DNA of 64,000 nucleotides, taken from an uncultured beta proteobacterium (lineage in GTDB: Bacteria > Pseudomonadota > Gammaproteobacteria > Burkholderiales > Rhodocyclaceae). Under the pieces are notes generated by a model. The model saw only the letters and a list, made by a program, of their open reading frames with translations, did not search any database and was not told where the DNA came from. The position numbers were made by a program, and so were the translations under genes. Within the stretch, counting starts at the first letter, position 1; each line of letters opens with the position of its first letter. Positions 205 through 48,906 of this stretch are shown piece after piece. The stretch lies in the NCBI GenBank assembly GCA_903908065.1, contig CAIVQO010000060.1:1-64000 (forward strand). The letters run 5' to 3'.

Positions 205-235
205 GTGACAAGAGTCGGCGCCGGCGACACGGCGA
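205..235 (+). repeat. dispersed repeat copy 1 (GTCGGCGCCGGCGACACGG type)
   Basis: GTGACAAGAGTCGGCGCCGG continues into CGACACGGCGA. This is one of six copies in the window with core AAGTCGGCGCYGGYGAYACG. This copy lies just upstream of the receiver-like gene. An upstream GAATCCGG block (190-197) is shared with the copy at 20152. Confidence 0.6.
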
Positions 236-252
236 CCCGTCGGAGACAAGGG

Positions 253-579
253 ATGAACAACAAGAAGATCTTGCTGCTGTGCCATGACCTCACCACGCGA
301 CTGCATCTCAACTCGACCTGGACGGCCGCCGGCGTCGAGATGCTGGCGGCGACCAGCGAGGAAAGTCCCGACTGCATCGTCATCGACCTGGGTCGTCGCG
401 ATGCCCTTGATGAAATCGCCCGGCGGCGCGAGCGCCATCCTGACGTAACCATCATTGCCTGCTTCGCCACGTACAACGACGAGGCCGTAGGCGCGGCCAA
501 GGCCGCTGGCGCCAACGACATCGCGGCGCGCAGCTTCGTCGACCGGCGCGTGGCCCGCCTGCTGCAGCTGGAACTCTGA
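253..579 (+). CDS. degenerate CheY-like receiver domain protein
   Basis: This 108-residue single-domain protein has the alternating pattern of a response-regulator receiver: KILLLCHD at the N-terminus, CIVIDL with the likely phospho-acceptor Asp around residue 45, IIACFAT, and GANDIAARS at the end. The acidic pair of the first loop is reduced to one Asp. The invariant Lys near the C-terminus is replaced by Arg-Ser, so classical phosphotransfer chemistry is doubtful. The ATG at 253 follows GGAGACAAGG, a good ribosome binding site; an upstream in-frame GTG would run through the dispersed repeat. The stop lies 6 bases before the next gene, so the two are probably co-translated. Confidence 0.65.
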   Translation: MNNKKILLLCHDLTTRLHLNSTWTAAGVEMLAATSEESPDCIVIDLGRRDALDEIARRRERHPDVTIIACFATYNDEAVGAAKAAGANDIAARSFVDRRVARLLQLEL

Positions 580-585
580 ACCCCG

Positions 586-1677
586 GTGCACCTGCTGGTC
601 GATATCTCGGCGCACGGCCTGGGTCACCTCGCACAGACGGCGCCGGTGCTGAATGCCCTGCGTCCCCTGCTGCCCGACCTGCGCCTGAGCCTGCGCAGTG
701 GCTTGCCATTGGGCAGGTTGAGGGCACGTGTCGAGGGCGAGTTCGACCACATCCCCGAGGCGCGCGACTTCGGTTTCGTGATGCACAATGCGGTGGACAT
801 CGATCGTGCCGGCAGCGCGCAAAGATATCGGGAGTTTCACGCCGACTGGGCGTCGCGCGTCGAGGCCGAGGCAGGCGAACTGCGGCGGCGGAAGGTCGAC
901 GCCGTGCTGTGCAATGCAGCTTACCTGCCGCTGGCCGCCGCCGCCGAGGCGGGAATCCCGGCGGTCGGCATGTCCTCGCTCAACTGGGCGGACATGTTTG
1001 CCCATTACCTTGGCGGCGAAGCCTGGGCGGCTCCGATCCATGCCCAGATCCTGCAGGCCTATAACTCGGCTGCCGCCTTCCTGTGCTTTGCGCCGGGGTT
1101 GCCGATGCCCGATTTCAGGCGCCGGATCGCGCTTGGCCCAGTCGCCAGGATCGGCCAGCGTGATCGCCAGTATTTCTCTCATTTGCTTGGCCTCGACGAG
1201 AGTAGGCGCTGGCTTTTGGTCGCCATGGGCGGCATGGATTTCCCCCTTGCAACCCAACGTTTACCGTCCCGAGAGGATGTTTGCTGGCTGTTGCCGGGGC
1301 CGCCGGAGGGGTTTGCCCGTGGCGACCTGCGCGGCTTCGACCCGGCCGAACCCCGCTTTGCCGACCTGCTCGCCAGTGTCGATGCTGTGATCACCAAGCC
1401 CGGCTATGGCACCTTTGTCGAGGCCGCATGCGCGGGCACGCCGATTGTCTATCTGGAACGCGACGATTGGCCCGAGACTCCGTATTTCGCCGCCTGGCTG
1501 GCGCAATATGGTCGGGCCGCCGCCATCGGGCGCGAGGCACTGCAGGCGGGCAGTTTCTTGCCCACGCTGGAGGCCCTGTGGCAGCAGCCGGCGCCGGCGC
1601 GGCCCGATCCGACGGGGGGGGGCGAGGCGGCACGGCTGCTGCTGCAGCTCTTCGCCCGCGCCAAAGGAAGTGTTTGA
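586..1677 (+). CDS. GT-B fold glycosyltransferase-like protein (MurG-like)
   Basis: A 363-residue protein starting at GTG. The N-terminal half opens with a Gly/His-rich loop ([19 protein letters not shown]) as in MurG/UDP-sugar transferases. The C-terminal half carries [29 protein letters not shown] in two adjoining blocks, matching the nucleotide-sugar binding region of GT-B enzymes. Substrate is unknown; lipid or polysaccharide glycosylation is only an inference from the fold. It follows the receiver-like gene by 6 bases and its end overlaps the -35 region of the rpsU promoter. A poly-G run (eight or more G near 1613-1622) lies near its 3' end and could be prone to slippage. Confidence 0.6.
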
Positions 1678-1701
1678 CTTCGACGGCGAAGTGGTTAGAA
1701 T
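1674..1701 (+). promoter_or_regulatory. sigma-70 promoter of rpsU
   Basis: TTGACT (1674-1679), a 16-base spacer and TAGAAT (1696-1701) precede rpsU by 31 bases. The -35 box overlaps the last codons of the upstream glycosyltransferase-like gene. Both boxes are near consensus, as expected for a ribosomal protein promoter. Confidence 0.75.
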
Positions 1702-1732
1702 GCGCGCCTTTCCCCGTTTCAGGATCAAGGCA

Positions 1733-1945
1733 ATGCCCGGAATTCGCGTCAAGGAAAACGAGCCCTTCGAAGTGGCGATCCGCCGTTTCAAGCGTGCGAT
1801 CGAGAAGACTGGCCTGCTCACCGAACTGCGTGCCCGCGAGTTCTACGAGAAGCCCACCACCGAGCGCAAGCGCAAGGCCGCTGCCGCCGTGAAGCGCCAC
1901 CACAAGCGCATCCGCAGCCAGCTGCTGCCGCCGAAGCTGTACTGA
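1733..1945 (+). CDS. rpsU: 30S ribosomal protein bS21
   Basis: The 70-residue basic protein begins [20 protein letters not shown] and has the family's Arg/Lys-rich tail ([15 protein letters not shown]), with the normal length for bS21. It binds the 30S subunit near the 16S 3' end and aids initiation. It heads the rpsU-yqeY-dnaG-rpoD macromolecular synthesis cluster, with its own strong promoter upstream and an intrinsic terminator 42 bases downstream. Expression of the distal genes therefore probably depends on read-through or internal promoters. Confidence 0.97.
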
Positions 1946-1987
1946 TTTCCGCCGGTTCGCCGCGGCGAACCATTGCAGTACCCCATG

Positions 1988-2010
1988 AAAACCGCCCTCC
2001 GGCGGTTTTT
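1988..2010 (+). terminator. intrinsic terminator after rpsU
   Basis: AAAACCGCC, loop CTCC, GGCGGTTTT, then a T-rich tract (GTGTTTTTTA). This is a classic rho-independent structure directly after rpsU. Confidence 0.85.
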
Positions 2011-2020
2011 GTGTTTTTTA

Positions 2021-2125
2021 TGTCCAGCCGCAAGGCTGGACGGTATGCACAGCAATGTCCGTCCGAAAGGACGGACGGTATCCACAGGAATGTCCGGCCG
2101 TAAGGCCGGGCCGCATCCACCGGAC
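2021..2125 (+). repeat. three tandem 35-bp units, each a GNRA-capped hairpin
   Basis: Units start at 2021, 2056 and 2091, an exact 35-base period. The stem-loops are GTCCAGCC-GCAA-GGCTGGAC, GTCCGTCC-GAAA-GGACGGAC and GTCCGGCC-GTAA-GGCCGGGC. Each is followed by a conserved CGGTATSCACAGSAA-like linker. Stem positions differ between units with matched changes on the opposite arm, and every loop has the GNRA pattern. The array lies between the rpsU terminator and yqeY. There are no unique spacers, so it is not a CRISPR array. Confidence 0.85.
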
Positions 2126-2138
2126 CAAGGACTGAGCC

Positions 2139-2588
2139 ATGAGCCTGGAAACCCGCATCGACGACGATTGGAAAGCCGCCATGAAGGCCGGCGATAAGGC
2201 CCGCAAGGATGCCCTGAGCCTGCTGCGTGCGGCGATCAAACAAAAGCGCGTGGACGACAAGGTCGAAATCACCGATGCCGTGGTGGTCGCGGTGATCGAG
2301 AAGATGCTCAAGCAGCGCAAGGATTCGATCGCGCAGTATGAAGCCGCGAAACGCCAGGACTTGGCCGACGCCGAGAAGTTCGAGGCCGGCGTGCTGGCCG
2401 GCTACATGCCGCAAGGCCTGTCCGCCGCCGAAGTCGAGGCCATTGTTGCCGCCGCAGTCGCCGAATCCGGCGCCAAGGGGCCGGCCGACATGGGCAAGGT
2501 CATCGCGCTGGTCAAGCCCAAGGTCGCCGGTCGCGCCGACATGGGCGAGGTTTCGAAGCTGGTCAAGGTGAAGCTGGCCGGCAGCTGA
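2139..2588 (+). CDS. yqeY: GatB/YqeY domain protein
   Basis: A 149-residue protein spanning the whole YqeY family: an N-terminal helical region (MSLETRIDDDWKAAMKAGDK), a middle AEKFEAGVLAGYMPQGLS segment and a C-terminal helical module related to the tRNA-binding tail of GatB (GPADMGKVIALVKPKVAGRADMG, seen in two adjoining pieces). Members are small soluble proteins, often next to rpsU and dnaG, with proposed tRNA-amidation or RNA-binding roles. It starts 13 bases after the hairpin array and ends 19 bases before dnaG. Confidence 0.92.
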   Translation: MSLETRIDDDWKAAMKAGDKARKDALSLLRAAIKQKRVDDKVEITDAVVVAVIEKMLKQRKDSIAQYEAAKRQDLADAEKFEAGVLAGYMPQGLSAAEVEAIVAAAVAESGAKGPADMGKVIALVKPKVAGRADMGEVSKLVKVKLAGS

Positions 2589-2607
2589 TGCGCGGCATAA
2601 TGCCCGC

Positions 2608-4362
2608 GTGATCCCCGAGAGCTTCGTCCAGGAACTGCTGGGCCGCGTCGACATCGTCGATGTGGTGGAACGCTATGTGCCGCTTAAGAAGGCGGGGGCC
2701 AACTACAGCGCCTGTTGCCCGTTCCATTCGGAAAAGACGCCGTCCTTTACGGTCAGCCCGTCCAAGCAGTTCTACCACTGCTTCGGCTGTGGCGCCCACG
2801 GCAGCGCCATCGGCTTCCTGATGCAGCACGCCGGGATCGGTTTCATCGAAGCGGTGGAAGACCTCGCCTCCTCGGTTGGCCTGCAGGTGCCCCATGAAGA
2901 ACGCCACCGCGCCGAGCGGGCGAAGAAGGCGCCGCTGACCGAACTCATGGCGCGCGCCGCGCGCTTTTATCGCGAACAACTCAAGGCCTCGCCCAAGGCC
3001 ATCGATTATTTCAAGGGCCGCGGCGTTTCCGGCGAGATCGCCGCCCGCTTCGGGCTCGGCTACGCGCCGGATGCCTGGCAGAGCCTGCAGCAGGTGTTCC
3101 CGGATTACAGCGATGCCGACCTGGTCGAATGCGGCCTGGTCATCGTCAACGACCAGGGCCGACGCTACGACCGCTTCCGCGACCGGGCGATGTTCCCCAT
3201 CCTCGATCAACGCGGCAACGTGATCGGCTTCGGCGGGCGAGTCATCGGCCAGGGCGAGCCCAAGTACCTGAATTCCCCGGAAACGCCGCTGTTCGAGAAG
3301 GGAAGGGAACTGTACGGCCTGACGCAGGCGCGCAAGGCGATCCAGGAACAGGACATGGTGCTCGTGGTGGAGGGCTACATGGACGTCGTCGGCCTGGCGC
3401 AGAGCGGCGTCGAAAACGTGGTGGCGACGCTGGGCACCGCCGCCACCGACGCCAACGTGCAGCGTCTGCTCAAGCTCGCCGACCGCGTGGTGTTCTGCTT
3501 CGACCGCGACGAGGCCGGCGACCGTGCCGCCTGGCGGGCGATGGAAGTCAGCCTTGGGCATCTCTCCGACAACAAGGTGGTCGAGATCCTGCAGATGTCC
3601 GGCGACCAGGACCCCGACGAGTTCGTCCGCGAGCATGGGCGCGAGGCCTTCCTCCACCAGGCGCGCAATGCGACGCGGCTTTCCGAGTTTCTGGTGCGCG
3701 AACTGGTGAAGCGCAGCGATCCGAATTCGGCCGAAGGAAGGGCGGCGCTGGTCCATGCCTCGAAGCCCTTGCTGCAAAAAATGAGTGCCCCCATCCTGCG
3801 CGTCCAGGTGACCAAGGAAATTGCGCGTCGGGCACAGGTCTCTCAAGCCGAGGTGGAAGCCCAGTGCGGGCTGAAGCCCCTGGCGCGAACCCGCTATGCT
3901 CCGCCACAAATGAAGCAGCGGCCGGCCCCCTCGTCGGTCGAGCGCAAGCTGCTGGAAATCGTCCTGCACAAGCCGGAATGGGCGGCACGCCTGCCGCTGG
4001 AACTGGTAGATGCAGAATTGATCGAATCTTCGGCCCTGGCCGTGATTGCCGACGCCATCGAGCATGGCGAGATGCCGAGTGGCGGATTCGGCCTGATGCT
4101 GGAGTTTTTTCGCGGAACCCCGCAGGAAGCGCTGATTTCCGAAGTCCTTGGCGGCATGGTGGACGACATCGAGCCCGGCGCCCTGGAGGCTGTCTTCAAT
4201 GATGCCATTGCACACCTGCGACAAGCTGCAATATCCATGGAAATCAAGCGCTTGAACGAGCGAGCCCGGCACGGTTTATGCGCCGAGGACAAACAGCGGC
4301 TGGCCGAACTGCTGGCATCGAAGCGATCGCCTGCCGGAGGGGCGGGTAGCGGCTCCATGTGA
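2608..4362 (+). CDS. dnaG: DNA primase
   Basis: A 584-residue primase that makes RNA primers for replication. The N-terminal zinc-binding domain shows CCPFHSEKTPSFTV and FHCFGCGAHG-type ligands (Cys/His/Cys/Cys, residues about 37-64). The TOPRIM core carries VVEGYMDVVGL, TLGTA and the DRDEAGD metal site (residues about 250-310). The C-terminal helical DnaB-interaction region is present. The GTG start is supported by alignment of MIPESFVQELL with the usual DnaG start. It lies in the macromolecular synthesis operon directly before rpoD, as in E. coli. Confidence 0.97.
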   Translation: MIPESFVQELLGRVDIVDVVERYVPLKKAGANYSACCPFHSEKTPSFTVSPSKQFYHCFGCGAHGSAIGFLMQHAGIGFIEAVEDLASSVGLQVPHEERHRAERAKKAPLTELMARAARFYREQLKASPKAIDYFKGRGVSGEIAARFGLGYAPDAWQSLQQVFPDYSDADLVECGLVIVNDQGRRYDRFRDRAMFPILDQRGNVIGFGGRVIGQGEPKYLNSPETPLFEKGRELYGLTQARKAIQEQDMVLVVEGYMDVVGLAQSGVENVVATLGTAATDANVQRLLKLADRVVFCFDRDEAGDRAAWRAMEVSLGHLSDNKVVEILQMSGDQDPDEFVREHGREAFLHQARNATRLSEFLVRELVKRSDPNSAEGRAALVHASKPLLQKMSAPILRVQVTKEIARRAQVSQAEVEAQCGLKPLARTRYAPPQMKQRPAPSSVERKLLEIVLHKPEWAARLPLELVDAELIESSALAVIADAIEHGEMPSGGFGLMLEFFRGTPQEALISEVLGGMVDDIEPGALEAVFNDAIAHLRQAAISMEIKRLNERARHGLCAEDKQRLAELLASKRSPAGGAGSGSM

Positions 4363-4368
4363 TATAAT
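4363..4368 (+). promoter_or_regulatory. rpoD: possible -10 element of an internal rpoD promoter
   Basis: TATAAT lies immediately after the dnaG stop codon and 104 bases before rpoD. No convincing -35 hexamer is visible 17 bases upstream, so this may need an activator or an alternative mode. The 110-base leader contains no other obvious element. Confidence 0.4.
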
Positions 4369-4472
4369 CAATGGTTCCCCAGCGCTCTCATGGCGCGTCG
4401 GGTCGGTTGCCCGCGCGGGTGGTGGCATTTCGTCGCCCAAGCGCAGCAATCGTGTCTTAGCCGAGGATAGAC

Positions 4473-6743
<2,271 letters not shown>

Positions 6744-6754
6744 ACGTGCAGCAC

Positions 6755-6780: not shown

Positions 6781-6792
6781 CAGTATCAAGCA

Positions 6793-6868: not shown

Positions 6869-6894
6869 GCTTCAACTTACCCGGAGCAGCGGAT

Positions 6895-7143: not shown

Positions 7144-7200
7144 GCAAAGCCCGCCACGGCCGTCGTGACGGTAATGCGACGGCCTTCAATGCGCACTGAG

Positions 7201-11099: not shown

Positions 11100-12308
11100 C
11101 TATGTCACGGAATTGTCGAGAAATAATGACAGTAGACGGTTCAGGAAGCGGCGTCCGAGGGCCGTCGGCCGCAGGTAGCCGTCGGCGCTCTCCAGCAGCC
11201 CGGTGCGCCGTGCCGCCAGCGCCGCCTTTTCGATTGCAGTTAGCGGCAGGCCGGTGCGCTCGGTGAATAAACCGAGCGGAAAGCCCGAATTGAGACGCAG
11301 CGCGTTCATCATGAATTCGCCCGGCAAGTCGTGCGCGGCGATCATGGTTTGGGAGGCGCAAAACTCGCCGCGCGATGCTGCGTCGAGATAGGCGCGCGGA
11401 TGCCGCTGGCGCGTTTCGCGCCAGATCCGCTGATGGTCCGACAGCTTGCCGTGGGCGCCCGCACCGATGCCGAGATAGTCACCGAAGGTCCAGTAGTTGA
11501 GGTTGTGCCGGCAGGTTTGGCCCGAACGCGCGAAGGCCGAGGTTTCGTAATGCGCGAAACCGGCGGCGGCGAGCTTCTGCTCCACCATGTCCTGCATGTC
11601 GGCGGCCAGGTCGTCGTCGGGCAGCGGCGGTGGAGCGTGGTGAAACGCGGTATTCGGCTCCAGCGTTAGGTGATAGGCGGAAACATGGCCGACGCCGCTG
11701 GCGATGGCGGTGGCGATGTCCCGCTCCGCCTCGGCCAGGGTTTGCCTAGGCAGGGCGTACATCAGGTCGAGGTTGACGCGCTCGAAATGGCGCAACGCCA
11801 GTTCGATCGCCTGCCGGGCTTCGTGCGAATCGTGAATGCGCCCCAGCGCAGCCAGCTTGGCATCGTCAAAGCTTTGCACGCCGAGCGACAGGCGCGTCAC
11901 GCCGGCGGCGCGAAAGGCAGCAAATTTTCCGGCTTCGACGGTGCCGGGGTTGGCCTCCAGCGTGACCTCGGCGTCGGGCTGCAGCGGCAGGCGCATGCGA
12001 ATGGCCGCCAGCAGCGCATCCGCGGTTTCACCCTTCATCAGGCTCGGCGTGCCGCCGCCGATGAAGACGCTGCCTACCGGCCGGTTCCAGATCGCCGGCA
12101 ATGCCGCTTCGAGGTCGGCAATCAGCGCGGCAAGATAGGCTTGTTCGTCGAACGTTACTTGCACCTCGTGCGAATTGAAATCGCAGTAGGGACACTTGCG
12201 CACGCACCAGGGCCAATGCACGTAAAGCGAGAGCGGAGGTGGCGCCGCCAGCCCGCTGCCCGCAAGTGTCGGCGCGGGTGCCGCGGCGGCAGGATGAATC
12301 GGGATCAC
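11100..12308 (-). CDS. hemW: radical SAM heme chaperone HemW
   Basis: A 402-residue protein with the CX3CX2C motif in HWPWCVRKCPYCDFNSHEV, GGGTPSL, EANPGTVE and GVQSFDDAKLAALGR, all typical of the HemN/HemW group. The family short form without the HemN N-terminal arm, together with its place after rph-rdgB, indicates HemW, which binds heme and delivers it to respiratory enzymes. The GTG start overlaps the rdgB stop as GTGA. Confidence 0.92.
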   Translation of the reverse strand: MIPIHPAAAAPAPTLAGSGLAAPPPLSLYVHWPWCVRKCPYCDFNSHEVQVTFDEQAYLAALIADLEAALPAIWNRPVGSVFIGGGTPSLMKGETADALLAAIRMRLPLQPDAEVTLEANPGTVEAGKFAAFRAAGVTRLSLGVQSFDDAKLAALGRIHDSHEARQAIELALRHFERVNLDLMYALPRQTLAEAERDIATAIASGVGHVSAYHLTLEPNTAFHHAPPPLPDDDLAADMQDMVEQKLAAAGFAHYETSAFARSGQTCRHNLNYWTFGDYLGIGAGAHGKLSDHQRIWRETRQRHPRAYLDAASRGEFCASQTMIAAHDLPGEFMMNALRLNSGFPLGLFTERTGLPLTAIEKAALAARRTGLLESADGYLRPTALGRRFLNRLLSLFLDNSVT

Positions 12309-12895
12309 GCGCCGCTGCGCAGGCGGGCCAGCAACTGGGCGAGTGCCTGGCCGCGATGCGAGCGGCGGTTCTTTTCCTCGTGCGGCAATTCGGCGACGGT
12401 CAACTTAAGTTCCGGCACCAGGAAATACGGGTCATATCCGAAACCGCCGTCGCCGCGCGGCGCGTCGACGATCTCGCCGTGCCATTCGCCCTCTGTGACA
12501 ATGGGCTGCGGGTCGTCGGCATGGCGCATCAACACCAGCACGGCGACGTAATGGGCGCGGCGGTCGGCCTTGCCTTGCAACTCGGCAACCAGCTTGGCGT
12601 TGTTGCGCTGATCCGACTTCGGCTCGCCGGCATAGCGTGCCGAAAACACGCCCGGCGCCCCGCCCAGCGCGCTGACGCACAGGCCGGAATCGTCCGCCAG
12701 CGCCGGCAGCCCGGTCAGGCGTGCGGCGTGGCGCGCCTTGGCGATGGCGTTTTCGACGAAGGTGACGTGCGGCTCATCGGCTTCCGGCACATTGAAGGCT
12801 GATTGCGGCAGGACTTCAAAGTCGAATGGTGCCAGCAGCTGGCCGAATTCGCGCAGCTTGCCGACATTTCCCGAGGCGAGGACGAGCTTTTTCAC
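12305..12895 (-). CDS. rdgB: RdgB/HAM1 family non-canonical purine NTP pyrophosphatase
   Basis: A 196-residue enzyme hydrolysing ITP, XTP and dITP to monophosphates. Family marks are [14 protein letters not shown] at the N-terminus, [49 protein letters not shown] and SHRGQAL near the end. The GTG at 12895 overlaps the rph stop (GTGA), giving translational coupling. Upstream of the GTG the frame runs back into rph, so this is the only sensible start. Confidence 0.95.
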
Positions 12896-13623
12896 CGTAT
12901 CTCCAGCGCCGACTTTTGTGCCGCGACGATGTCGCCGATGCCGGCAGCGGCGAGTTCCAGCAGCGTATCCAGTTCGCCACGCGAGAATGGGGCGCCCTCG
13001 GCCGTACCCTGGACTTCGATGATGCCGCCGCCGGCCGTCATCACCACGTTCATGTCGGTGTCGCAGGCGGAGTCTTCCACGTAGTCCAGGTCCAGTACCG
13101 GCACGCCGTCGACAATGCCGACCGAGACGGCGGCGACCAACTCGCGCATCGGATGGCGCGCCAGCTTGCCGGCGCCGACCAGTTTGTTCAGCGCGTCGTG
13201 CAGGGCCACGCAGGCACCGCTGATTGACGCGCAACGGGTGCCGCCATCAGCCTGTATGACATCGCAATCAAGCGTGATCTGGCGTTCGCCGAGCGCCGCG
13301 AGATCGGTTACCGCGCGCAGCGAGCGGCCGATCAGGCGCTGGATCTCCTGGGTGCGGCCGGACTGCTTGCCCTTGGCGGCTTCGCGATCGGTGCGGGTAT
13401 TGGTCGAGCGCGGCAGCATGCCGTACTCGGCGGTGACCCAACCCTGGCCCTTGCCCTTGAGGAAGGACGGCACCCGTTCATCCACGCTGGCGGTGCACAG
13501 CACCCGGGTGTCGCCAAACTCCACCAGCACGCTGCCTTCGGCGTGGCGGGTGAAGTTGCGGGTGATGCGCAGCGGCCTCAACTGCGCGGCCTCGCGGTTC
13601 TGGCGGGATGGCGGGCGATTCAT
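12892..13623 (-). CDS. rph: ribonuclease PH
   Basis: A 243-residue 3'-5' phosphorolytic exoribonuclease that trims tRNA 3' ends. Typical blocks are [47 protein letters not shown]-type ([13 protein letters not shown]), [15 protein letters not shown] and LDLDYVEDS. The ATG start overlaps the stop of the PP2C gene (ATGA). The last codons ([10 protein letters not shown]) coincide with a match to the dispersed repeat of the window, possibly by chance because AAQK is conserved in Rph. Confidence 0.96.
12895..12918 (-). repeat. dispersed repeat copy 2, at the rph/rdgB junction (weaker)
   Basis: On the minus strand, AAAAGTCGGCGCTGGAGATA followed by CGG differs from the core consensus at about two positions. 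It encodes the last residues of Rph, so part of the similarity may come from conserved codons. Confidence 0.35.
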
Positions 13624-20066: not shown

Positions 20067-20462
20067 TCAGGCCCTGGCCGGCGGGCCGCGCGGGCGATGG
20101 GCCGAAGCCTGGGCTTGGCCGCGGGTTGCGGAATCCGGGTTTGCCTGGCGAGTGACGAAAGTCGGCGCTGGTGCTACGGCGGTCGTTGTGCCGGAGAGCA
20201 CGAGCGGCGCCCCGGCGGCACAGAGTTTGCAACAATCGTGACTGCCCTGCGTATCGGCCGGTGCTTGTTGTGCCCCCGGATTCGCCACGCCATGGCTGCC
20301 GCAGACTTGGGGAACAAAGCCGCTATCGCTGGCGATGCCGGCGCGTACCAGCCCTGTTCCTGCCAGCAAATGCAGCAGCATGGCGAACACGCCGACCACG
20401 AGCATACGTGTCGGATGGCGGTGCGGCCTCAGGCAGGATGGGAATCGAATCATCGCCCGCAT
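20067..20462 (-). CDS. DUF2946 family protein (copper-associated)
   Basis: A 131-residue protein with an N-terminal membrane or signal helix (RMLVVGVFAMLLHLLAGTGL) and the small HDCCKLCAAG Cys/His cluster characteristic of DUF2946, which commonly neighbours copper chaperones and receptors. Alternative starts at 20453 or the Met before LVVGV are possible. The stretch TAVAPAPTFVTR in its C-terminal half is encoded by the antisense of dispersed repeat copy 3, so the tail may be modified by that element. Confidence 0.6.
   Translation of the reverse strand: MRAMIRFPSCLRPHRHPTRMLVVGVFAMLLHLLAGTGLVRAGIASDSGFVPQVCGSHGVANPGAQQAPADTQGSHDCCKLCAAGAPLVLSGTTTAVAPAPTFVTRQANPDSATRGQAQASAHRPRGPPARA
20152..20183 (+). 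repeat. dispersed repeat copy 3, inside the DUF2946 gene (antisense)
   Basis: GTGACGAAAGTCGGCGCTGG continues into TGCTACGGCGGT. With copy 1 it also shares an upstream GAATCCGG block (20131-20138), suggesting an element longer than the core. Confidence 0.55.
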
Positions 20463-29389: not shown

Positions 29390-29391
29390 GG

Positions 29392-38692: not shown

Positions 38693-38706
38693 TCGCCGCG
38701 GAAATC

Positions 38707-38730
38707 GCCGCTCCGCCAGCGCCGACTTTG
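38707..38730 (-). repeat. dispersed repeat copy 4, between ffh and the kinase-like gene
   Basis: On the minus strand, CAAAGTCGGCGCTGGCGGAG continues CGGC. It matches the core except in the ACAC segment and lies in the 86-base gap after ffh. Confidence 0.5.
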
Positions 38731-38778
38731 CCGCAGCGGGTGCTGGCGCTGGAGGCTGGGGCGCGGTACCCTACGCCA

Positions 38779-40086
38779 ATGGATTATCTGGATTGGTTTG
38801 TGCCGCCGGAGTCGCTCGACGATTCCCGGATGCGTACGCGCCACCGGGGCATCACCAAGGCGCTGCTGACGATCTCGCTGGTGGTGACGGTAATGTTGCT
38901 GGCCGTGGCGCTGCTGCGTGGCCGCCTTGTCTGGGTGGAGTACCTGTTGTTTGCCGGCTGCATCCTGACGCCAGTAGCCGGCGCGCTGTTGATCCGAGCC
39001 ACTTCCAGCATTACCCTGGGACTGGTTGCCACCAACCTTGGCGGCATCGTGGTGGTGACGGCCTGGGCCTGGCTGAGCGGCGGCATCCTGTCGATTGCCC
39101 TGCCGGCCTTCCTGGCGAACATTGCCCTGCTGGGCACCTTCGGCAATGTGCCGATCCTGATCGCGATGGGTGTCGTGTTGGCCGCGGCCCTGCTTCTCCT
39201 CTACCTGTCGACCGTACTCGCCTGGTTGCCTCCCAGCATTGTCGCCGCCGCCGACCTGCCCGGTCTGATGCTGACGGCGATGCTGGGTTCGGCCGGGATC
39301 GTAGTGCTGGCTGGCTACTTCCTCGCCCGCGATCGTGCCCTGGTCAAGGCGCGCCTGCATGATGCACGCCTGGCCGCCGAGCAGTCCAGCCGGGCCAAGG
39401 CGGCTTTCCTGCGGTCGATGAGCCAGGAATTCCGCGCCCCTCTGGAGGCCATCCTGGGGCAGGCCGAAAGCTTGCGCGCCGCGCTGCCCGGCGATGCGCG
39501 CGAACAGCAGAGCCTGCAAGGCATCGTGATCGCCGGCCAGTATCTTGGCGACCTGCTGAACCAGTTGCTGGAAATGGGGCGTGTCGAGGCCGACGAGACC
39601 TCGGTGCGCATCGAGCCCGTCAAAGTGTCCGAGATCGTTGGCCCTTGCCTGGCCATCATTCGCCCCGAACTGGAGAAGCGCCGCCTTGCGCTGACCGATG
39701 ATTGCGGAGAGCTTGGCGCGCGCCATGTCTGGGCAGACCGGGTGCTGGTGCGCCAGGTCGTGCTCAACCTGCTGACCAATGCCGTCAAGTTCAACCGTGA
39801 GGGCGGATCGGTGGCGGTATCCTGCCAGGTACTGGCGGAATCCTTTTTGCGCATTGTTGTTGCCGACACCGGTGCCGGCATTGCCAAGTCGCGCCAGCGA
39901 GAGTTGTTCGAACCCTTCTCGCGCCTCGGCTTGCAGCAGGGCAGCGTGCGCGGAGCCGGTCTCGGACTGGTAATGTCAAAGCGGCTGATTGAGCGCATGC
40001 GCGGGCGCATTGCCTTCGAATCGATCGACGGCATGGGCAGCAGCTTTTGGATCGACCTGCCGCTGGCCGACGTCGGCAGCACTTGA
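38779..40086 (+). CDS. membrane histidine-kinase-like protein lacking the phospho-His (pseudokinase candidate)
   Basis: A 435-residue protein from ATG 38779. About six N-terminal transmembrane helices (residues about 25-185) form the input module. The HisKA-type dimerisation segment reads SMSQEFRAPLEAI, with Gln216 (codon CAG 39424-39426) where family members have the phospho-accepting His. The ATPase domain is intact: NLLTNAVKFN, VVADTGAGIA, GAGLGLVMSKRL. It may act by protein contact or as an allosteric partner; a sequencing error is unlikely to explain a clean codon change in-frame. No response regulator is adjacent. Confidence 0.85.
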   Translation: MDYLDWFVPPESLDDSRMRTRHRGITKALLTISLVVTVMLLAVALLRGRLVWVEYLLFAGCILTPVAGALLIRATSSITLGLVATNLGGIVVVTAWAWLSGGILSIALPAFLANIALLGTFGNVPILIAMGVVLAAALLLLYLSTVLAWLPPSIVAAADLPGLMLTAMLGSAGIVVLAGYFLARDRALVKARLHDARLAAEQSSRAKAAFLRSMSQEFRAPLEAILGQAESLRAALPGDAREQQSLQGIVIAGQYLGDLLNQLLEMGRVEADETSVRIEPVKVSEIVGPCLAIIRPELEKRRLALTDDCGELGARHVWADRVLVRQVVLNLLTNAVKFNREGGSVAVSCQVLAESFLRIVVADTGAGIAKSRQRELFEPFSRLGLQQGSVRGAGLGLVMSKRLIERMRGRIAFESIDGMGSSFWIDLPLADVGST

Positions 40087-40233: not shown

Positions 40234-41325
40234 ATGTCCATCAACGAACAGAGCATCCAGGCCGCGCTGCAGGCCGTTTTCGACCCCAATACCGGCAAAG
40301 ACTTGGTGGCCAGCCGCAGCGTGAAGAACATCAAGGTCAATGGCAACGACGTCGCCCTGGATGTCGAACTCGGCTATCCGGCGAAAAGCCAGATCGACAG
40401 CCTGCGTGCTGCCGTGATCGGCGCGCTGAAGGCGCTGCCCGGCATCGGCAACGTCAGCGCCAACGTGTTCTCTAAGGTGGTCACCCACGCCGTGCAGAAG
40501 GGCGTCAAGCTGATCCCCGGGGTGAAGAACATCATCGCCGTGGCCAGCGGCAAGGGCGGCGTCGGCAAGTCGACCACGGCCGTGAACCTGGCGCTGGCAC
40601 TGGCTGCCGAAGGCGCCACGGTCGGCCTGCTCGACGCCGACATCTACGGCCCCTCACTGCCGACCATGCTCGGCATCCCCACCGGCCGCCCCGAGTCGGC
40701 CGACGGCAAGAGCCTGGAGCCCATGGACGCCCACGGCATCCAGGCCATGTCGATCGGCTTCCTCATCGATCCCGAGCAGCCCATGGTCTGGCGCGGCCCG
40801 ATGGTGACCCAGGCCCTGACCCAGTTACTGACCGAAACGCGCTGGCGTGACGTGGACTACCTGGTGATCGACATGCCGCCCGGTACCGGCGACATCCAGC
40901 TCACCCTGGCGCAGCAGGTACCGGTGACCGGCGCGGTGATCGTCACCACGCCGCAGGACATTGCCCTGCTCGATGCGCGCAAGGGTCTCAAGATGTTCGA
41001 AAAAGTCGGCATCCCCATCCTCGGCATCGTCGAGAACATGAGCATCCACATCTGCTCGAAGTGCGGTCATGCCGAGCACATCTTCGGCTCCGGCGGCGGC
41101 GACCGCATGGCCAAGGACTACGAAGTCGAGATGCTGGGCGCGCTGCCGCTGGCGATGTCGATCCGCGAACAGATGGATGGCGGCAAGCCCACCGTCGAGG
41201 CCGAACCGGTCGGAAAGGCCACCGAGATCTACAAGGCCATCGCGCGCCGCGTGGCGGTCAAGATTGCCGAAAAGGCCAAGGACCATTCCAGCAAATTCCC
41301 CAGCATCAAGGTGATGAACACCTGA
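40234..41325 (+). CDS. apbC: iron-sulfur cluster carrier protein ApbC/Mrp
   Basis: A 363-residue protein with an N-terminal MIP18/DUF59 domain (NTGKDLVASRSVKNIKVN) and a ParA/Mrp NTPase. The P-loop is ASGKGGVGKSTTAVNLALAL, with DADIYGPSLPTMLG, DMPPGTGD, and CSKCGHAEHIFG supplying the CxxC cluster ligands. It binds and transfers Fe-S clusters in the cytoplasm. Its 3' end overlaps that of bioF by 20 bases on opposite strands. The upstream IscR-like site fits iron-sulfur control. Confidence 0.96.
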   Translation: MSINEQSIQAALQAVFDPNTGKDLVASRSVKNIKVNGNDVALDVELGYPAKSQIDSLRAAVIGALKALPGIGNVSANVFSKVVTHAVQKGVKLIPGVKNIIAVASGKGGVGKSTTAVNLALALAAEGATVGLLDADIYGPSLPTMLGIPTGRPESADGKSLEPMDAHGIQAMSIGFLIDPEQPMVWRGPMVTQALTQLLTETRWRDVDYLVIDMPPGTGDIQLTLAQQVPVTGAVIVTTPQDIALLDARKGLKMFEKVGIPILGIVENMSIHICSKCGHAEHIFGSGGGDRMAKDYEVEMLGALPLAMSIREQMDGGKPTVEAEPVGKATEIYKAIARRVAVKIAEKAKDHSSKFPSIKVMNT

Positions 41326-42499
41326 TCCCGGACAGGGCCGCCAGCAGGCGGCCCATTTCCGCCTCGCCCAGGCCGCTGTTGATTGCCAGGCGCAGGCGGC
41401 TGGTCCCGGGTGCCACGGTGGGCGGCCGGATCGCCACGGCAAGGATGCCGGCGTCGTCGAGTGCGGCCGCCGCGGTGAGCGTATCGGTCTCGGCGCCGAA
41501 TACCGCAGGCACGATCTGCGTTGCAGAGTCCAGCGTCGGGATGCCTTGCGCCGCCAGCGCCTGGCGCAGGCGTTCGGCATTGGCGGCGACGCGTGCGCGT
41601 TCCGCGTCCATGCCCGGAAGCAGGTCCAGCGCAGCATCCACCGCACCCAGCACCGGCGGCGGCAGCGCCGTGGTGAAAATGAAGCCCGAGCAGCGATTCA
41701 CCAGCCAGTCGATCAGTGCGCGAGAGCCGGCGACATAGGCGCCGAAGGCACCGAAGGCTTTGCCCAGCGTGCCCATCACCACATCGACGCCTTCGACGTC
41801 GGCGGCCAGGCCGCGCCCGCCCGGGCCGAGGATGCCAGTCGCGTGGGCCTCATCGACGTAGAGCAGGGCGCCGTGGCGCCGGGCGATTCCGGCCAGGCCC
41901 GGCAGGTCGGCGCGATCGCCGTCCATGCTGAACACCGATTCGGTGGCGATCAGCTTGCGTCCACGGTGCAGGCCCAGCAGCGTGTCGAGGTGATCGAGGT
42001 CATTGTGGCGAAACACATGAACCGGGCAGCGTGCGGCGCGGGCGCCATGGATCATGCTGGCGTGGTTGAGCTGGTCGCTGAAGATCGCCGTCGCATTTGC
42101 CGTGTCACCGGCGCCGACTTTCTGCCCCAGGCGCGCCAGCGCCGGCAGCACCGTGGCATTGGCCTGGAAACCGCTGGAAAACAGGAGCGCGGCCTCGCGC
42201 CCCTTGAAGGCGGCCAGGCGTTGCTCGACTGCCAGGGTGATTTCGCGGGTGCCCGTCACCAGGCGCGATGCGGGCGCGCCGGCGCCGTGGCACTGCGCCC
42301 ACTCCGCGGCGCGCTGCCTGAGCAGAGGATGCTGCGCAAGACACAGGTAATCGTTGGATGAGGCGTCGATCAGCGGCCGGCCGGTTGCATCGTGCAACGC
42401 GCCATTCCGATGCGAAAGGCCCCGCAAGCGCCGGCGCTGGTGGGCCCCATCGAGCGCCGCGAGTTCGGCATCGAGGAGACGTTCGAACTCGGAATTCAC
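41306..42499 (-). CDS. bioF: 8-amino-7-oxononanoate synthase with an in-frame repeat-encoded insertion
   Basis: A 397-residue PLP enzyme condensing pimeloyl thioester with alanine. Family marks are SSNDYLCLAQHP, GSRLVTG-like ASRLVTGTR, FSDQLNHASMIHG, DEAHATGILGPGGRGL and GTLGKAFGAFGAY (Lys binds PLP). Residues 127-133 read KVGAGDT inside LARLGQ-KVGAGDT-ANATAIFSDQ, about ten residues more than the usual connection here, and are encoded by dispersed repeat copy 5. GTG start overlaps bioA (GTGA). Confidence 0.93.
   Translation of the reverse strand: MNSEFERLLDAELAALDGAHQRRRLRGLSHRNGALHDATGRPLIDASSNDYLCLAQHPLLRQRAAEWAQCHGAGAPASRLVTGTREITLAVEQRLAAFKGREAALLFSSGFQANATVLPALARLGQKVGAGDTANATAIFSDQLNHASMIHGARAARCPVHVFRHNDLDHLDTLLGLHRGRKLIATESVFSMDGDRADLPGLAGIARRHGALLYVDEAHATGILGPGGRGLAADVEGVDVVMGTLGKAFGAFGAYVAGSRALIDWLVNRCSGFIFTTALPPPVLGAVDAALDLLPGMDAERARVAANAERLRQALAAQGIPTLDSATQIVPAVFGAETDTLTAAAALDDAGILAVAIRPPTVAPGTSRLRLAINSGLGEAEMGRLLAALSGIRCSSP
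42099..42124 (-). repeat. dispersed repeat copy 5, inside bioF in frame
   Basis: On the minus strand CAGAAAGTCGGCGCCGGTGA continues CACGGC, a full match to the core consensus. It sits inside the bioF coding sequence in a frame that reads KVGAGDT and keeps bioF open. Confidence 0.7.
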
Positions 42500-43767: not shown

Positions 43768-43819
43768 GGGATGGGCATTGGCCGGAGGGCCGCTAGAATC
43801 GCGGCGCAACGGGGGAACT

Positions 43820-44488: not shown

Positions 44489-44529
44489 CAAGGGCAGGGT
44501 TGGGGGCGGGGGGCAAAACATGGGCGGCG

Positions 44530-44556
44530 CCTAACGTTCCCTGCGGGAAAGTTAGG
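44530..44556. promoter_or_regulatory. 27-base near-perfect inverted repeat upstream of dcd
   Basis: CCTAACGTTCCC-TGC-GGGAAAGTTAGG has 12-base arms with one mismatch. It lies 42 bases after bioD and directly before TATACT (44560-44565), so it covers the -35 region of the likely dcd promoter. It could be an operator or the bioD 3' hairpin; no T-run follows. Confidence 0.5.
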
Positions 44557-44598
44557 TCGTATACTGCGCCCCCTTGACCACCTTTCCCCGGAAGCGCC

Positions 44599-45165
44599 AT
44601 GGCCATCAAGTCTGACAAGTGGATACGCCGCATGGCGGCCCAGCACGGAATGATCGAACCCTTCGAGGCGGGTCAGGTACGTGAGGCCAACGGCCACAAG
44701 ATCGTTTCCTACGGAACCTCGAGCTACGGTTACGACATCCGCTGTTCGCGCGAATTCAAGCTGTTCACAAATATCAACAGCACCATCGTCGACCCGAAGA
44801 ATTTCGACCCGAATTCCTTCGTCGAAGTGAATGCCGATCACTGCATCATTCCGCCCAATTCCTTCGCCCTGGCACGTACCGTCGAGTATTTCCGCATTCC
44901 GCGCAATGTATTGACCGTCTGTCTGGGCAAGAGCACCTATGCCCGCTGCGGCATCATCGTCAATGTCACGCCGTTCGAGCCCGAGTGGGAAGGCTACGTG
45001 ACGCTGGAATTCTCGAACACGACGCCGCTGCCGGCCAAGATCTACGCCGGCGAAGGCTGCGCCCAGGTGCTTTTTTTCGAGTCCGACGAGGTCTGCGAGA
45101 CGTCCTACAAGGACCGCGGCGGCAAGTACCAGGGGCAGACCGGCGTCACCCTGCCCAAGATCTGA
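44599..45165 (+). CDS. dcd: dCTP deaminase
   Basis: A 188-residue trimeric deaminase giving dUTP. It begins [13 protein letters not shown] and contains [40 protein letters not shown] with the catalytic Glu in [13 protein letters not shown], and a Gln/Gly-rich tail ([13 protein letters not shown]). Normal length. A terminator follows and separates it from the decarboxylase gene. Confidence 0.96.
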
Positions 45166-45200
45166 CGCCTAGCGCCAGTCTCGTCCATCTTTACTCTCGA

Positions 45201-45226
45201 CCCGCCCCCGGCGGGTTTTCGCTTTT
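45201..45226 (+). terminator. intrinsic terminator after dcd
   Basis: ACCCGCC-CCC-GGCGGGT-type hairpin followed by TTTCGCTTTT, ending 13 bases before the next gene's start. Read-through could still supply the decarboxylase. Confidence 0.6.
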
Positions 45227-45238
45227 GAGGAAACCGCG

Positions 45239-47485
45239 ATGCGATTTCATTTCCCCATCATCATCATCGACGAGGATTTCCGTTCCGAGAATGCTTCCGG
45301 TCTTGGCATCCGCGCCCTGGCCGAAGCCATCGAGAAGGAAGGCCTCGATGTGCTGGGCGTCACCAGTTACGGCGACCTGACTTCCTTCGCCCAGCAACAA
45401 AGCCGCGCCTCGGCCTTCATCCTGTCGATCGACGATGAGGAATTCACCCCGGGCCCCGAACTCGACCCGGCGGTGCTCAACCTGCGCTCCTTCGTCGAGG
45501 AGATCCGCCACAAGAACCCCGACATCCCTATCTTCCTCCACGGCGAGACGCGCACCTCACGCCACATCCCGAACGACATCCTGCGCGAGCTGCATGGCTT
45601 CATCCACATGTACGAGGACACGCCGGAATTCATCGCCCGCCATGTCGTGCGCGAGGCCAAGGCCTACCTCGATTCGCTGCCGCCACCCTTCTTCCGCGCG
45701 CTGACGCACTACGCGGCCGATGGTTCCTATTCCTGGCACTGCCCCGGCCATTCGGGTGGCGTGGCCTTCCTCAAGTCGCCCGTCGGCCAGATGTTCCACC
45801 AGTTCTTCGGCGAAAACATGCTGCGCGCCGACGTCTGCAACGCGGTCGAGGAACTCGGGCAACTGCTCGACCACACCGGCCCGGTCGCCGCCTCCGAGCG
45901 CAACGCCGCGCGCATCTTCAATGCCGACCATCTGTTCTTCGTCACCAATGGCACCTCGACCTCGAACAAGATCGTCTGGCATTCCACGGTGGCGCCCGGC
46001 GACGTGGTGATCGTCGACCGCAACTGCCACAAGTCGGTGCTGCACTCGATCATGATGACCGGCGCGATTCCCGTCTTCCTCATGCCGACGCGCAACAACT
46101 ACGGCATCATCGGCCCGATCCCGAAGGAAGAGTTCTCCTGGAAGAACATCAAGAAGAAGATCGCCGCCCATCCCTTCGCCAGCCAGGTCAAGGGCAAGCC
46201 GCGGGTGCTGACCATCACCCAGAGCACCTATGACGGCATCCTCTACAACGTCGAGGACATCAAGGAGGAGCTCGACGGCAAGATCGACACCCTGCATTTC
46301 GACGAGGCCTGGCTGCCGCACGCGGCCTTCCACGACTTCTACGGTGACTACCACGCGATCGGCGCCGACCGGCCGCGCTGCAAGGAGTCGATGGTGTTCT
46401 CCACCCAGTCCACCCACAAGCTGCTGGCCGGCCTCTCCCAGGCCTCGCAGATCCTGGTGCAAGACGCTGAGCACAGCCGCCTCGATCGCGACGTGTTCAA
46501 CGAGGCCTACCTGATGCACACCTCGACCTCGCCGCAGTATTCGATCATTGCCTCCTGCGACGTCGCCGCGGCGATGATGGAGGAGCCGGGCGGCACCGCC
46601 CTGGTCGAGGAATCGATCAGCGAGGCACTGGACTTCCGCCGCGCCATGCGCAAGGTGGACAAGGAGTGGGGTGCCGACTGGTGGTTCCAGGTCTGGGGGC
46701 CGAAGGACCTGTCGGAAGAAGGCATCGAAGAGCGCGAGGCCTGGATGCTCAAGCCCGGCGAAAAGTGGCACGGCTTCGGCAAGCTGGCCAAGGGCTTCAA
46801 CCTGCTCGATCCGATCAAGGCCACCATCATCACCCCTGGACTCGACGTCGATGGCGATTTCTCCGACGACAATGGCATTCCGGCGGCGATCGTCACCAAG
46901 TACCTGGCCGAGCATGGCGTGATCGTCGAGAAGTGCGGACTGTATTCCTTCTTCATCATGTTCACCATCGGCATTACCAAGGGCCGCTGGAACACGCTGG
47001 TCACCGCGCTGCAACAGTTCAAGGACGACTACGACCGCAACCATCCGCTGTGGAAGGTGTTGCCCGAGTTCGTCGCCAAGCATCCGCGCTACGAGCGCGT
47101 CGGCCTCAAGGACCTGTGCACCCAGATCCACGAGGTCTACAAGAAGAACGACGTGGCGCGCCTGACCACCGAGATGTACCTGTCCGACATGGTGCCGGCG
47201 ATGCGCCCGGCCGATGCCTTCGCCAGGATGGCCCATCGCGAGATCGAACGCGTGCCGCTCGACGACCTGGAAGGGCGCGTGACCGCCGTCCTGCTCACAC
47301 CCTATCCGCCGGGCATTCCGCTGCTGATCCCGGGCGAGTGTTTCAACGCCACCATCGTGCGCTACCTCAAGTTCGCACGGGAGTTCAATGACCAGTTCCC
47401 GGGGTTCGAAACCGACATCCACGGCCTGGTCAAGGACGGCAGCAACGGCTCGGTGCGCTACTACGTGGACTGCGTCGCCGCCTGA
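45239..47485 (+). CDS. Orn/Lys/Arg decarboxylase, fold-type I PLP enzyme
   Basis: A 748-residue inducible-type amino-acid decarboxylase. An N-terminal receiver-like wing domain starts MRFHFPIIIIDEDFRSE. The PLP core has SWHCPGHSGGVAF, NADHLFFVTNGTSTSNKIVW, HFDEAWLPHAAF and FSTQSTHKLLAGLSQ (Lys binds PLP). A C-terminal domain follows (LLIPGECFNATIVRYL). The family includes lysine, ornithine and biodegradative arginine decarboxylases; the substrate cannot be fixed from sequence. Likely roles are polyamine/cadaverine synthesis or acid resistance. Confidence 0.92.
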   Translation: MRFHFPIIIIDEDFRSENASGLGIRALAEAIEKEGLDVLGVTSYGDLTSFAQQQSRASAFILSIDDEEFTPGPELDPAVLNLRSFVEEIRHKNPDIPIFLHGETRTSRHIPNDILRELHGFIHMYEDTPEFIARHVVREAKAYLDSLPPPFFRALTHYAADGSYSWHCPGHSGGVAFLKSPVGQMFHQFFGENMLRADVCNAVEELGQLLDHTGPVAASERNAARIFNADHLFFVTNGTSTSNKIVWHSTVAPGDVVIVDRNCHKSVLHSIMMTGAIPVFLMPTRNNYGIIGPIPKEEFSWKNIKKKIAAHPFASQVKGKPRVLTITQSTYDGILYNVEDIKEELDGKIDTLHFDEAWLPHAAFHDFYGDYHAIGADRPRCKESMVFSTQSTHKLLAGLSQASQILVQDAEHSRLDRDVFNEAYLMHTSTSPQYSIIASCDVAAAMMEEPGGTALVEESISEALDFRRAMRKVDKEWGADWWFQVWGPKDLSEEGIEEREAWMLKPGEKWHGFGKLAKGFNLLDPIKATIITPGLDVDGDFSDDNGIPAAIVTKYLAEHGVIVEKCGLYSFFIMFTIGITKGRWNTLVTALQQFKDDYDRNHPLWKVLPEFVAKHPRYERVGLKDLCTQIHEVYKKNDVARLTTEMYLSDMVPAMRPADAFARMAHREIERVPLDDLEGRVTAVLLTPYPPGIPLLIPGECFNATIVRYLKFAREFNDQFPGFETDIHGLVKDGSNGSVRYYVDCVAA

Positions 47486-47505
47486 CCCGCGCAACTGGGC
47501 ACCGT

Positions 47506-47519
47506 TTGACGCAAGTCAA
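47506..47519 (+). promoter_or_regulatory. FNR/Anr box with class II promoter geometry
   Basis: TTGAC-GCAA-GTCAA is a perfect palindrome of FNR/Dnr type. TAGGAT (47541-47546) is suitably placed as a -10 box, which puts the box centre near -41 from a start site around 47553. The start codon would then lie at or after 47556, an unusually short leader. Confidence 0.6.
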
Positions 47520-47555
47520 AGGTGCCTGCCCTGCTAGGCATAGGATGGGCTGATC

Positions 47556-48798
47556 ATGCGAGCCCCCGACGGCTTGAACGTGGCCAGCCTTTACAGCGAT
47601 TTCCGGATAGACGAAGTTGCCATCGCGCGCGAGGTGATGGCGGAGCGCGTCCGCGTGTTCACGGACCGCTCGGTTTCCGGAGCCTTGTCGTCGCCCTTCG
47701 GCACCCTGTTGCTGGCGGCAATCATCGGTCCCGGCGCGGGTTGGCAACAGGCTGCGATATGGCTGGTGCTGATCAACCTGGGCGAGTTGTTGATCCTCGG
47801 CTTCGGCTATCGCTATCGCGCCGTCCGTCCGGATGCACGGAGCAGCCACGTCTGGGCCCGCTACCAGATCGGTGCCAATGCCGCGACCGGGCTGGCATGG
47901 GGCTGCTCGATCTGGATCATGGCGGTCGATCCGGTCTCGCCGCTTTACCTATTCAATATCTGCGTGCTGGTCGGCGTTTCGGCCCTGTGCGTCAGCATCA
48001 TGTCCGCCTTTCGTCTTGGCATGCGGCTGTTCGCCCTGGGCGTGCTGCTGCCGCCGATACTGCATGTGTTCTGGATTTCGCATCCTCAAGCGGCGCAGAT
48101 CGGTTCCGGGCTGTCGATCCTGCTGGCGCTGGAGTTGTATTACGGCCACTTTGCGCGGCGTCAGCTGATTCACGGTTTGGATGCGGCGCAACGCAGCCGG
48201 GCCCAGGTGGCGCAACTGTCGCAGTTGCGCGGGGAACTATTCCAGAGCAACCAGCAGCTGGGGGAAAAAATGCCGACCTTGGCCAGGCATTGGAACGCCT
48301 CAACGAACTGGCCACCCGGGACGAGCTGACCGGGGCCTTCAATCGTCGCATCATGGTCGAGTACCTCGAACGTCAGGTGGTCACAAATCGCGTTACGGCA
48401 CCCCCGCCAGCCTGCTGATGTTCGATCTGGACCACTTCAAGAACATCAACGATACGCACGGCCACCTGGTTGGCGATCAGGCTCTGCAAGTCTTGGTGCG
48501 CACCGTGAGCGGGGAGCTGCGCGAAGGCGATATTCTTGCCCGCTTCGGTGGCGAGGAATTCCTGGTCCTGTTGCCGATGGCCCCGCGCGACGCTGCCTCG
48601 CAACTGGTCGAGCGTCTGCGCTGCGCCATTTCGGCGATCGAACTGCGGGATGGCGATACGCCGGTGCTACTGCGTGCATCCTTCGGCGTGGCAGAACTGG
48701 CGGCCGACGAGGGCGTCGCTGGCTGGTTGCGCCGCGTTGATCTTGCGATGTACCAGGCCAAGGAAGCCGGGCGCAACCGGGTGATCAATGCGGAATAG
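47556..48798 (+). pseudogene. membrane GGDEF diguanylate cyclase, disrupted by two single-base frameshifts
   Basis: The first frame encodes four to five transmembrane helices (GTLLLAAIIGPGAGW, AAIWLVLINLGELLILGF, YLFNICVLVGVSALCVSIMS, LGVLLPPILHVFWI) and a linker. At 48265-48270 an A6 run should be A7 to continue into NADLGQALERLNELATRDEL. Near 48388-48392 one base is missing before RYGTPASLLMFDLDHFK. The third frame carries GGEEF (ARFGGEEFLVLL) and ends at 48798. With both bases restored a normal DGC of about 414 residues results. It may be a real pseudogene or assembly indels. ATG 47638 is an alternative start. Confidence 0.85.
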
Positions 48799-48879
48799 TT
48801 CTTTCGATCATAAGCGGTAGCCGGGTCGGGCGAAGGCGCACCGCAGTTCGGCATTCGTGCCCGCCGAAGATCAAGCATC

Positions 48880-48906
48880 GCCGTGTCGCCGGCGCCGACT
48901 TTCGGC
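48880..48906 (-). repeat. dispersed repeat copy 6, upstream of the SRPBCC gene
   Basis: On the minus strand CCGAAAGTCGGCGCCGGCGA continues CACGGCG, a full core match in the 165-base gap between the GGDEF gene and the SRPBCC gene. The rest of the gap shows no clear promoter. Confidence 0.65.

Follow-up and report, generated by a model that had tools for sequence, protein, structure and literature searches.

The stretch analysed here, hereafter the window, comprises 64,000 nucleotides (positions 1 to 64,000 of contig CAIVQO010000060.1, assembly GCA_903908065.1) of a Sulfuritalea genome (Rhodocyclales; G000, 3.84 Mb in 103 contigs). It carries copies of a short dispersed motif that we tentatively interpret as a DNA uptake sequence. 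A first-pass annotation had reported six copies. All six are present, and two further ones, 11209- and 55241+, were absent from that annotation. A 20-mer version of the motif, searched on both strands with up to 3 mismatches, gives 8 matches in the window (212+, 11209-, 12896-, 20159+, 38709-, 42101-, 48882- and 55241+), against a mean of 0.10 and a maximum of 1 in 100 shuffles. Scored against the 24-mer AAAGTCGGCGCYGGYGAYACGGCG, the copies are as follows:

211..234, + strand: motif copy with 1 mismatch, some 20 nt 5' of an ATG that follows GGAGACAAGG
11206..11229, - strand: motif copy with 2 mismatches, within a radical SAM/HemN_C gene (11100-12308, -)
12265..12288, + strand: degenerate copy with 5 mismatches, antisense to the opening codons of the HemN-like gene
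12893..12916, - strand: motif copy with 2 mismatches, covering the RNase PH stop codon (gene 12892-13623, -) and the start of a Ham1-family gene
20158..20181, + strand: motif copy with 1 mismatch, called intergenic, with divergent genes on either side; 22 of 24 bases kept in the sister genome G008
38706..38729, - strand: motif copy with 3 mismatches, overlapping the start of a histidine-kinase ORF (38728-40086, +)
42098..42121, - strand: motif copy with 1 mismatch, read in frame as KVGAGDTA in a class I/II aminotransferase-family (AONS-like) gene (41306-42499, -)
48879..48902, - strand: perfect 24-mer, called intergenic by a simple caller (a doubtful call) and also within a putative ORF (48871-49752, -)
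55240..55263, + strand: motif copy with 3 mismatches, antisense within a carbohydrate phosphorylase gene (54859-57417, -); 24 of 24 bases the same in G008

The simple gene caller places the copy at 211..234 within a 135-codon TTG-start ORF (175-579, +), which is also a doubtful call. The copy at 11206..11229 may partly be native coding sequence, and that at 42098..42121 sits in a length-variable loop of the AONS-like protein. At Rfam gathering thresholds the window contains one tRNA only, and no curated RNA family coincides with the copies. The 18.5 kb between 20158 and 38706 are the longest motif-free gap in the C60 sample; they contain a class II tRNA synthetase with a GAD domain and a large hybrid histidine kinase.

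The motif is abundant throughout the genome. With up to 2 mismatches, the 20-mer was found 480 times (226 forward, 254 reverse), far above the reversed pattern, which was found on neither strand. In a 464 kb sample of the same genome, the 24-mer gave 9, 15, 20, 24, 9 and 6 sites at 0, 1, 2, 3, 4 and 5 mismatches, while the reversed and five shuffled patterns gave at most 2 in any mismatch class. Words derived from the motif also top the lists of 13-mers of this genome and of two congeners. Alignments of 45 and 77 copies define an ungapped motif, AAAGTCGGCGCYGGYGAYACGGCGAT, of 24-26 bp with sharp edges and no common flanks: the sequence common to the copies spans about -1 to +26 and then ends abruptly, with loose positions at 12 and 15-18. 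The first-pass annotation had suspected a longer mobile or palindromic unit. This holds in so far as REP-like (repetitive extragenic palindromic) repeat units lie inside some copies, here and in relatives. The GAATCCGG block that it had noticed upstream of copies 1 and 3 is no family trait, positions -24 to -2 carrying at most 0.16 bits in 45 copies, and the near-palindrome that it had pointed out does not form a significant hairpin (z -0.94 for the 26-mer fold against shuffles). Other words were seen alongside. In L048 and L039 a variant occurs, AACTCGGCGCTGGCGATACG, whose 20-mer has C as its third base; AACTCGGCG is over-represented in three genomes as well (24 against 7, 18 against 6 and 17 against 5 for the reversed word); and the G002 samples (L181-L200) contain a second dispersed word family, TCCGCAGATTTCG and its shifts, with 10 copies each in 400 kb.

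We then placed 77 copies (up to 4 mismatches) from the sample of the window genome relative to genes predicted by a simple in-house caller. As had been noted for the window, copies lie both in and between genes and on both strands: 52 are genic, 4 partly genic and 21 intergenic. Since 88% of the sample was called coding, 11.9% of copies would be expected in noncoding DNA, and the 21 of 77 observed represent a significant enrichment (p = 0.0002). An over-represented word of this kind could arise by chance or from codon or peptide bias, and KVGAGDTA is indeed the commonest translation (23 of the 52 coding copies). However, coding copies use all six reading frames, many copies are called intergenic, and reversed and shuffled patterns yield almost nothing. 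These controls already refute such an origin, whose probability we regard as negligible.

To see how far the motif extends, we counted it in related genomes. All 24 congeners sampled contain it, with 36-629 copies each against 0-2 for the reversed control, while 16 genomes of other families contain 0-4. A wider survey with a pattern covering the dialects described below took in 399 genomes from the order and 395 from the family, the latter in 68 genera. The motif is abundant in 7 of these 68 genera: g1 (23 genomes, 35-664 copies), g18 (266-694 copies in 17 of 19 genomes, 63 in one and 0 in one), g22 (4 of 4, 272-492), g215 (9 of 9, 264-423), and single genomes of g166, g192 and g199 (623, 700 and 174 copies). 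Weak counts elsewhere in the family were 30 in G448, 17 in G477 and 14 in G443, and all others were 10 or less; outside the family, the highest count in the order-wide survey was 7 (G113). Motif-rich genera also include genomes with few copies, namely G655 (0), G667 (63) and G017 (35), which offer natural comparisons for finding the gene of the reader. Comparison of 100 kb each of G180, G050 and G278, with 19-30 copies each, revealed dialects: two g18 genomes have ...GGGACGGCA against ...GAYACGGCG in Sulfuritalea, and ...GGCGGGACGGCA where Sulfuritalea prefers ...GGCGAYACGGCG. A separate dialect was sought in G655, of which 43.5 kb, a small sample, gave no comparable over-represented word.

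Copies are strongly conserved in place. In G008, the nearest sister by a one-locus comparison (83-91% identical over the region), orthologous sites could be located for 23 of 68 copies of the window genome, within the part of G008 that was fetched, and for 20 of 119 copies in the reverse direction. The motif was kept at 21 of the 23 sites and, in reverse, at 19 of the 20. One of the two unconserved sites holds a long form in G008 and the other has 5 mismatches. Over 20 aligned pairs, leaving out rows with a length difference above 10 or more than 6 target mismatches, identity was 347/360 at the 18 high-information positions (at least 1.2 bits in the logo of 77 copies), 97/120 at the six others, 444/480 over all 24 and 0.86 in the flanks. 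In 60 sequence sets, 252 ortholog pairs (73 of 236 copies) comprised 168 with the motif present, 44 ambiguous and 40 absent. Among the absent pairs, 15 were of equal length, 2 were shorter by 24 nt (one site), 12 were longer by 18-60 nt and 11 were other cases. The equal-length absences represent 8 copies, grouped into 5 sites, one of which aligns poorly. Motif-less orthologs of equal length show that insertion was not how several copies arose. The same is said of the uptake signal sequences (USS) of Pasteurellaceae, for which a section of PMC7811141 describes evolution by point mutations. Insertion in the manner of Rickettsia palindromic elements (RPE), an earlier suggestion, is thus not the main pattern; it may account for the two sites at which the motif-less ortholog is 24 nt shorter.

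The distribution of copies along the chromosome was analysed on pooled stretches of four genomes, G000 and G008 having ortholog sites in common. Copies are more evenly spaced than random: 7.5% of gaps are below 1 kb, compared with 17.4% in simulations, none of 2000 of which was as low. Taken genome by genome, the deficit of short gaps is significant in G000 (p 0.0005), G002 (0.011) and G008 (0 of 2000 simulations) and not in G045 (0.485); the coefficient of variation of the gaps is low in G000, G008 and G045 (0.044) and not significantly so in G002 (0.29). Even spacing is a trait of USS. The two strands are used almost symmetrically (226/254 genome-wide), with a slight excess, 133 against 93, favouring the leading strand by GC skew in nine sampled stretches, two of them nearly skewless. 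Strong polarity of the type of FtsK-orienting polar sequences (KOPS) was not seen in either count.

We consider it well supported that the motif is a functional DNA signal that is recognised. Copy number, sharp length, occurrence on both strands, intergenic enrichment, conservation by position, even spacing in the sampled stretches, dialects, restriction to part of one family and the presence of ComEC and DprA are directly shown. The most likely reading, to which we give a probability of roughly 0.43, is that the motif serves Sulfuritalea and several genera related to it as a DNA uptake sequence. A DNA receptor on the cell surface or pilus would recognise the 24-26 bp motif in free DNA, and DNA carrying it would be taken up preferentially; through homologous recombination the motif would then be spread, retained and spaced out along the genome. 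Three points in this scheme are inferred: the identity of the reader as an uptake receptor, the competence of the cells and the upkeep of the motif by uptake-based drive or selection. This proposal draws on likeness to known uptake sequences in population-genetic traits rather than on function.

The main rival, which we hold to be rather unlikely, is that the motif is bound by a protein of chromosome maintenance, of repair or of self-versus-foreign defence, and that phages acquired it to pass as self. Even spacing and conservation in place would fit such a site. However, near strand symmetry is unlike KOPS, and two conserved blocks over 24-26 bp exceed Chi-type sites, which are shorter. The very small or zero numbers of copies in G655, G667 and G017, within motif-rich genera, further suggest that the site is dispensable.

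Phages bear directly on this rival. Exact copies of the motif were found in 60 stretches of IMG/VR contigs, some at a GC content of 0.49-0.57. Ten proteins were scanned from three of the motif-bearing stretches (seven from L309, two from L305, one from L316): eight match phage families, including primase, terminase large subunit, RusA-like resolvase, exonuclease and DNA methyltransferase, and two match none. In 40 non-redundant viral stretches, copies beyond the exact ones amount to 34-77 per Mb depending on GC class, with 0 in the reversed control; density in four host genomes is higher, at 142-205 per Mb. As the viral set was selected for an exact copy, these figures make no statement on phages in general. 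Exact and further copies alongside such genes would fit a self mark borrowed by phages. In one family of phage methyltransferases, the motif lies near the C-terminus and is accompanied by a related tail, mostly VQGDMLLPAN or VQEDWTK, while the flanks differ and the homologs have diverged. Motif and tail occur together in the following:

Phage methyltransferases with motif and tail: L358-L360, L362-L365, L367-L371, L376, L397, L410, L411, L414 and L431

A tail common to otherwise diverged methyltransferases suggests exchange, and judging from these sequences motif and tail may form an exchange cassette. Neither pure insertion nor pure substitution describes the C-termini, since motif-bearing and motif-less tails differ by various lengths.

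Some copies are interrupted by other sequence. Gains of 18-60 nt were observed in 48 of 252 motif ortholog pairs (16 of 73 copies), compared with 8 of 2769 control pairs (5 of 564 positions), a control unmatched for permissive loops; because motif sites lie in such loops, part of the excess may reflect tolerance. The long forms keep both motif ends and hold between AAAGT and CGGCGC units such as TATG-hairpin-CGGTATCCC. Similarly, the G008 counterpart of the degenerate copy at 12265, compared by eye, has a 27 nt repeat unit between GTGT and CGGCGC. From 51 matches to CGGTATCCC, we left out 15 without an upstream TATG and one duplicate, although some of these rows look nested as well, with CATG or TACG instead of TATG. 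Among the 35 units retained, 14 have both motif halves around them, 3 have one and 18 have neither. A nested full repeat unit from the window genome is more stable than its shuffles when folded (z -2.81), a stand-alone copy less clearly so (z -1.23), while folding of four shortened long forms was not significant (z 1.00, 0.25, 0.95 and -0.52). A repeat unit of the form (T)TATGTCYCCGGC-n-GCCGGRGACGGTATCCC was also seen standing alone, in tandem or nested in the motif:

G045, C19 sample, offsets about 56.95-57.04 kb (reverse): repeat unit (T)TATGTCYCCGGC-n-GCCGGRGACGGTATCCC
L155, 1386-1440: the same repeat unit
Window genome, C90, 152211 and 154956: the same repeat unit
G008: several instances of the same repeat unit

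With 18 of the 35 units outside it, the motif looks like a target of these units, and from their sequences we read them as REP-like elements that may prefer it as such. Alternatively, the motif could be a minimal mobile repeat family, with a longer element that moves by insertion and excision and of which the 24-mer is the empty form or scar. The excess of length gains, the retention of both motif ends around nested units and the two sites with orthologs shorter by 24 nt would all fit. Against this stand the five equal-length sites, strong conservation in place, over-even spacing, the many units outside the motif and the unmatched control, and we think this explanation improbable. Moreover, no protein matching PF01797 (Y1 transposase) was found in the window genome, while 6 of the 9 genomes searched have at least one; this speaks against a Y1 transposase as the driver of the motif.

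We next looked for competence machinery. ComEC was found in 27 of 27 genomes, in G667 (63 copies) as a match in two pieces on two contigs, DprA in 14 of 14 and N_methyl pilins in 4 of 4. As a discriminator of motif-bearing genomes ComEC had to be rejected, and its occurrence in G655, which has no copies, shows that it is not diagnostic. The ComEA search (TIGR00426) of the window genome gave a 798-aa frame below the cut-off as its sole match, and G002 and G599 gave none at E 0.001. The remaining TIGR00426 matches, in frames of 781-940 aa, are probably Tex-like proteins.

Several observations weigh against the uptake reading. The weightiest for ordinary transformation is the scarcity of ComEA, of which a divergent form is possible: TIGR00426 exceeded its cut-off in only 2 of 14 genomes, one motif-rich (G484) and one motif-free (G553), PF12836 not having been searched. 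Of the 12 genomes below it, 11 bear the motif (G000, G002, G008, G599, G180, G278, G435, G461, G468, G017 and G667), although ComEC and DprA are present in them; this lack of a ComEA-sized match favours the site of a maintenance or defence protein. ComEC is present in motif-free genomes too, and the pilin lists of four genomes yielded no clear receptor. Real phages carry the motif. Evenness of spacing fails significance on some measure in G002 and G045. No core enrichment was found in two syntenic spans compared with G008, where density in DNA of the window genome that does not align to G008 is not clearly lower (0.180 against 0.158 and 0.142 against 0.155 per kb). The single G008 copy absent from the window genome faces a sequence 24 nt shorter there, as insertion in G008 would give, and together with the site in the 60-set survey a clean 24 nt insertion fits two sites. 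Uptake by itself leaves the nested repeat units unexplained. Finally, the motif occurs at about 140-205 per Mb, compared with roughly 1000 for the DNA uptake sequences (DUS) of Neisseriaceae, a figure combining copy numbers given in part of PMC3630211 with a customary genome size. Among the options that the first-pass annotation had listed, a protein-binding or uptake motif still fits best, whereas a REP element does not suit the 24-mer itself, which lacks a hairpin in a genome lacking PF01797.

The motif shares features with several known systems. As in DUS, it is the most over-represented short motif, genic and intergenic, conserved, placed at permissive sites and diversified into genus dialects; excerpts of PMC3630211 describe the dialects of DUS, and excerpts of PMC2397512 their permissive locations and high conservation. 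In contrast to DUS, its sequence is unrelated, it measures 24-26 bp instead of 10-12 bp, it is phage-borne and without core enrichment, and a ComEA-type gene was mostly not found. In length it recalls USS, which consist of a core and flanks over 31 bp (according to a section of PMC7811141), whereas it is GC-rich, built of two blocks without AT tracts, less dense (USS are spaced about 1,000 bp apart) and hosted by a different proteobacterial class. The units TTATGTCYCCGGC..GCCGGRGACGGTATCCC, nested or alone, resemble elements of REP-associated tyrosine transposases (RAYT) in their plain inverted repeat, unlike the 24-mer, which has neither significant hairpin nor an accompanying PF01797 protein in the window genome. 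As with RPE, copies lie in frame within genes, and nested genic forms mostly differ by multiples of 3; unlike RPE, the motif is far shorter than the length usually given for them, several copies came without length change, and conservation across species is strong.

We found no published report of the motif, or of an uptake sequence in Rhodocyclaceae or Rhodocyclales, in the openly licensed literature; nor did it yield a hit for over-represented motifs as uptake sequences in betaproteobacteria. A passage of PMC7811141 attributes strong sequence-biased uptake to two bacterial families. More speculatively, and with less confidence than for uptake itself, the motif could be a third, independently evolved self tag, present in Rhodocyclales and in some of their phages, read by a receptor without canonical ComEA in uptake or defence, and serving as a favoured nest for REP-like units. 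If the uptake reading is true, the 'sex versus selfish drive' debate could be tested on an independent case, a third and unrelated motif from environmental Betaproteobacteria, with natural comparisons on offer in same-genus members that have hundreds, tens or no copies, in genus dialects and in tag-bearing phages. Should a defence or chromosome protein turn out to read it, the motif would be a new genome-wide mark of self.

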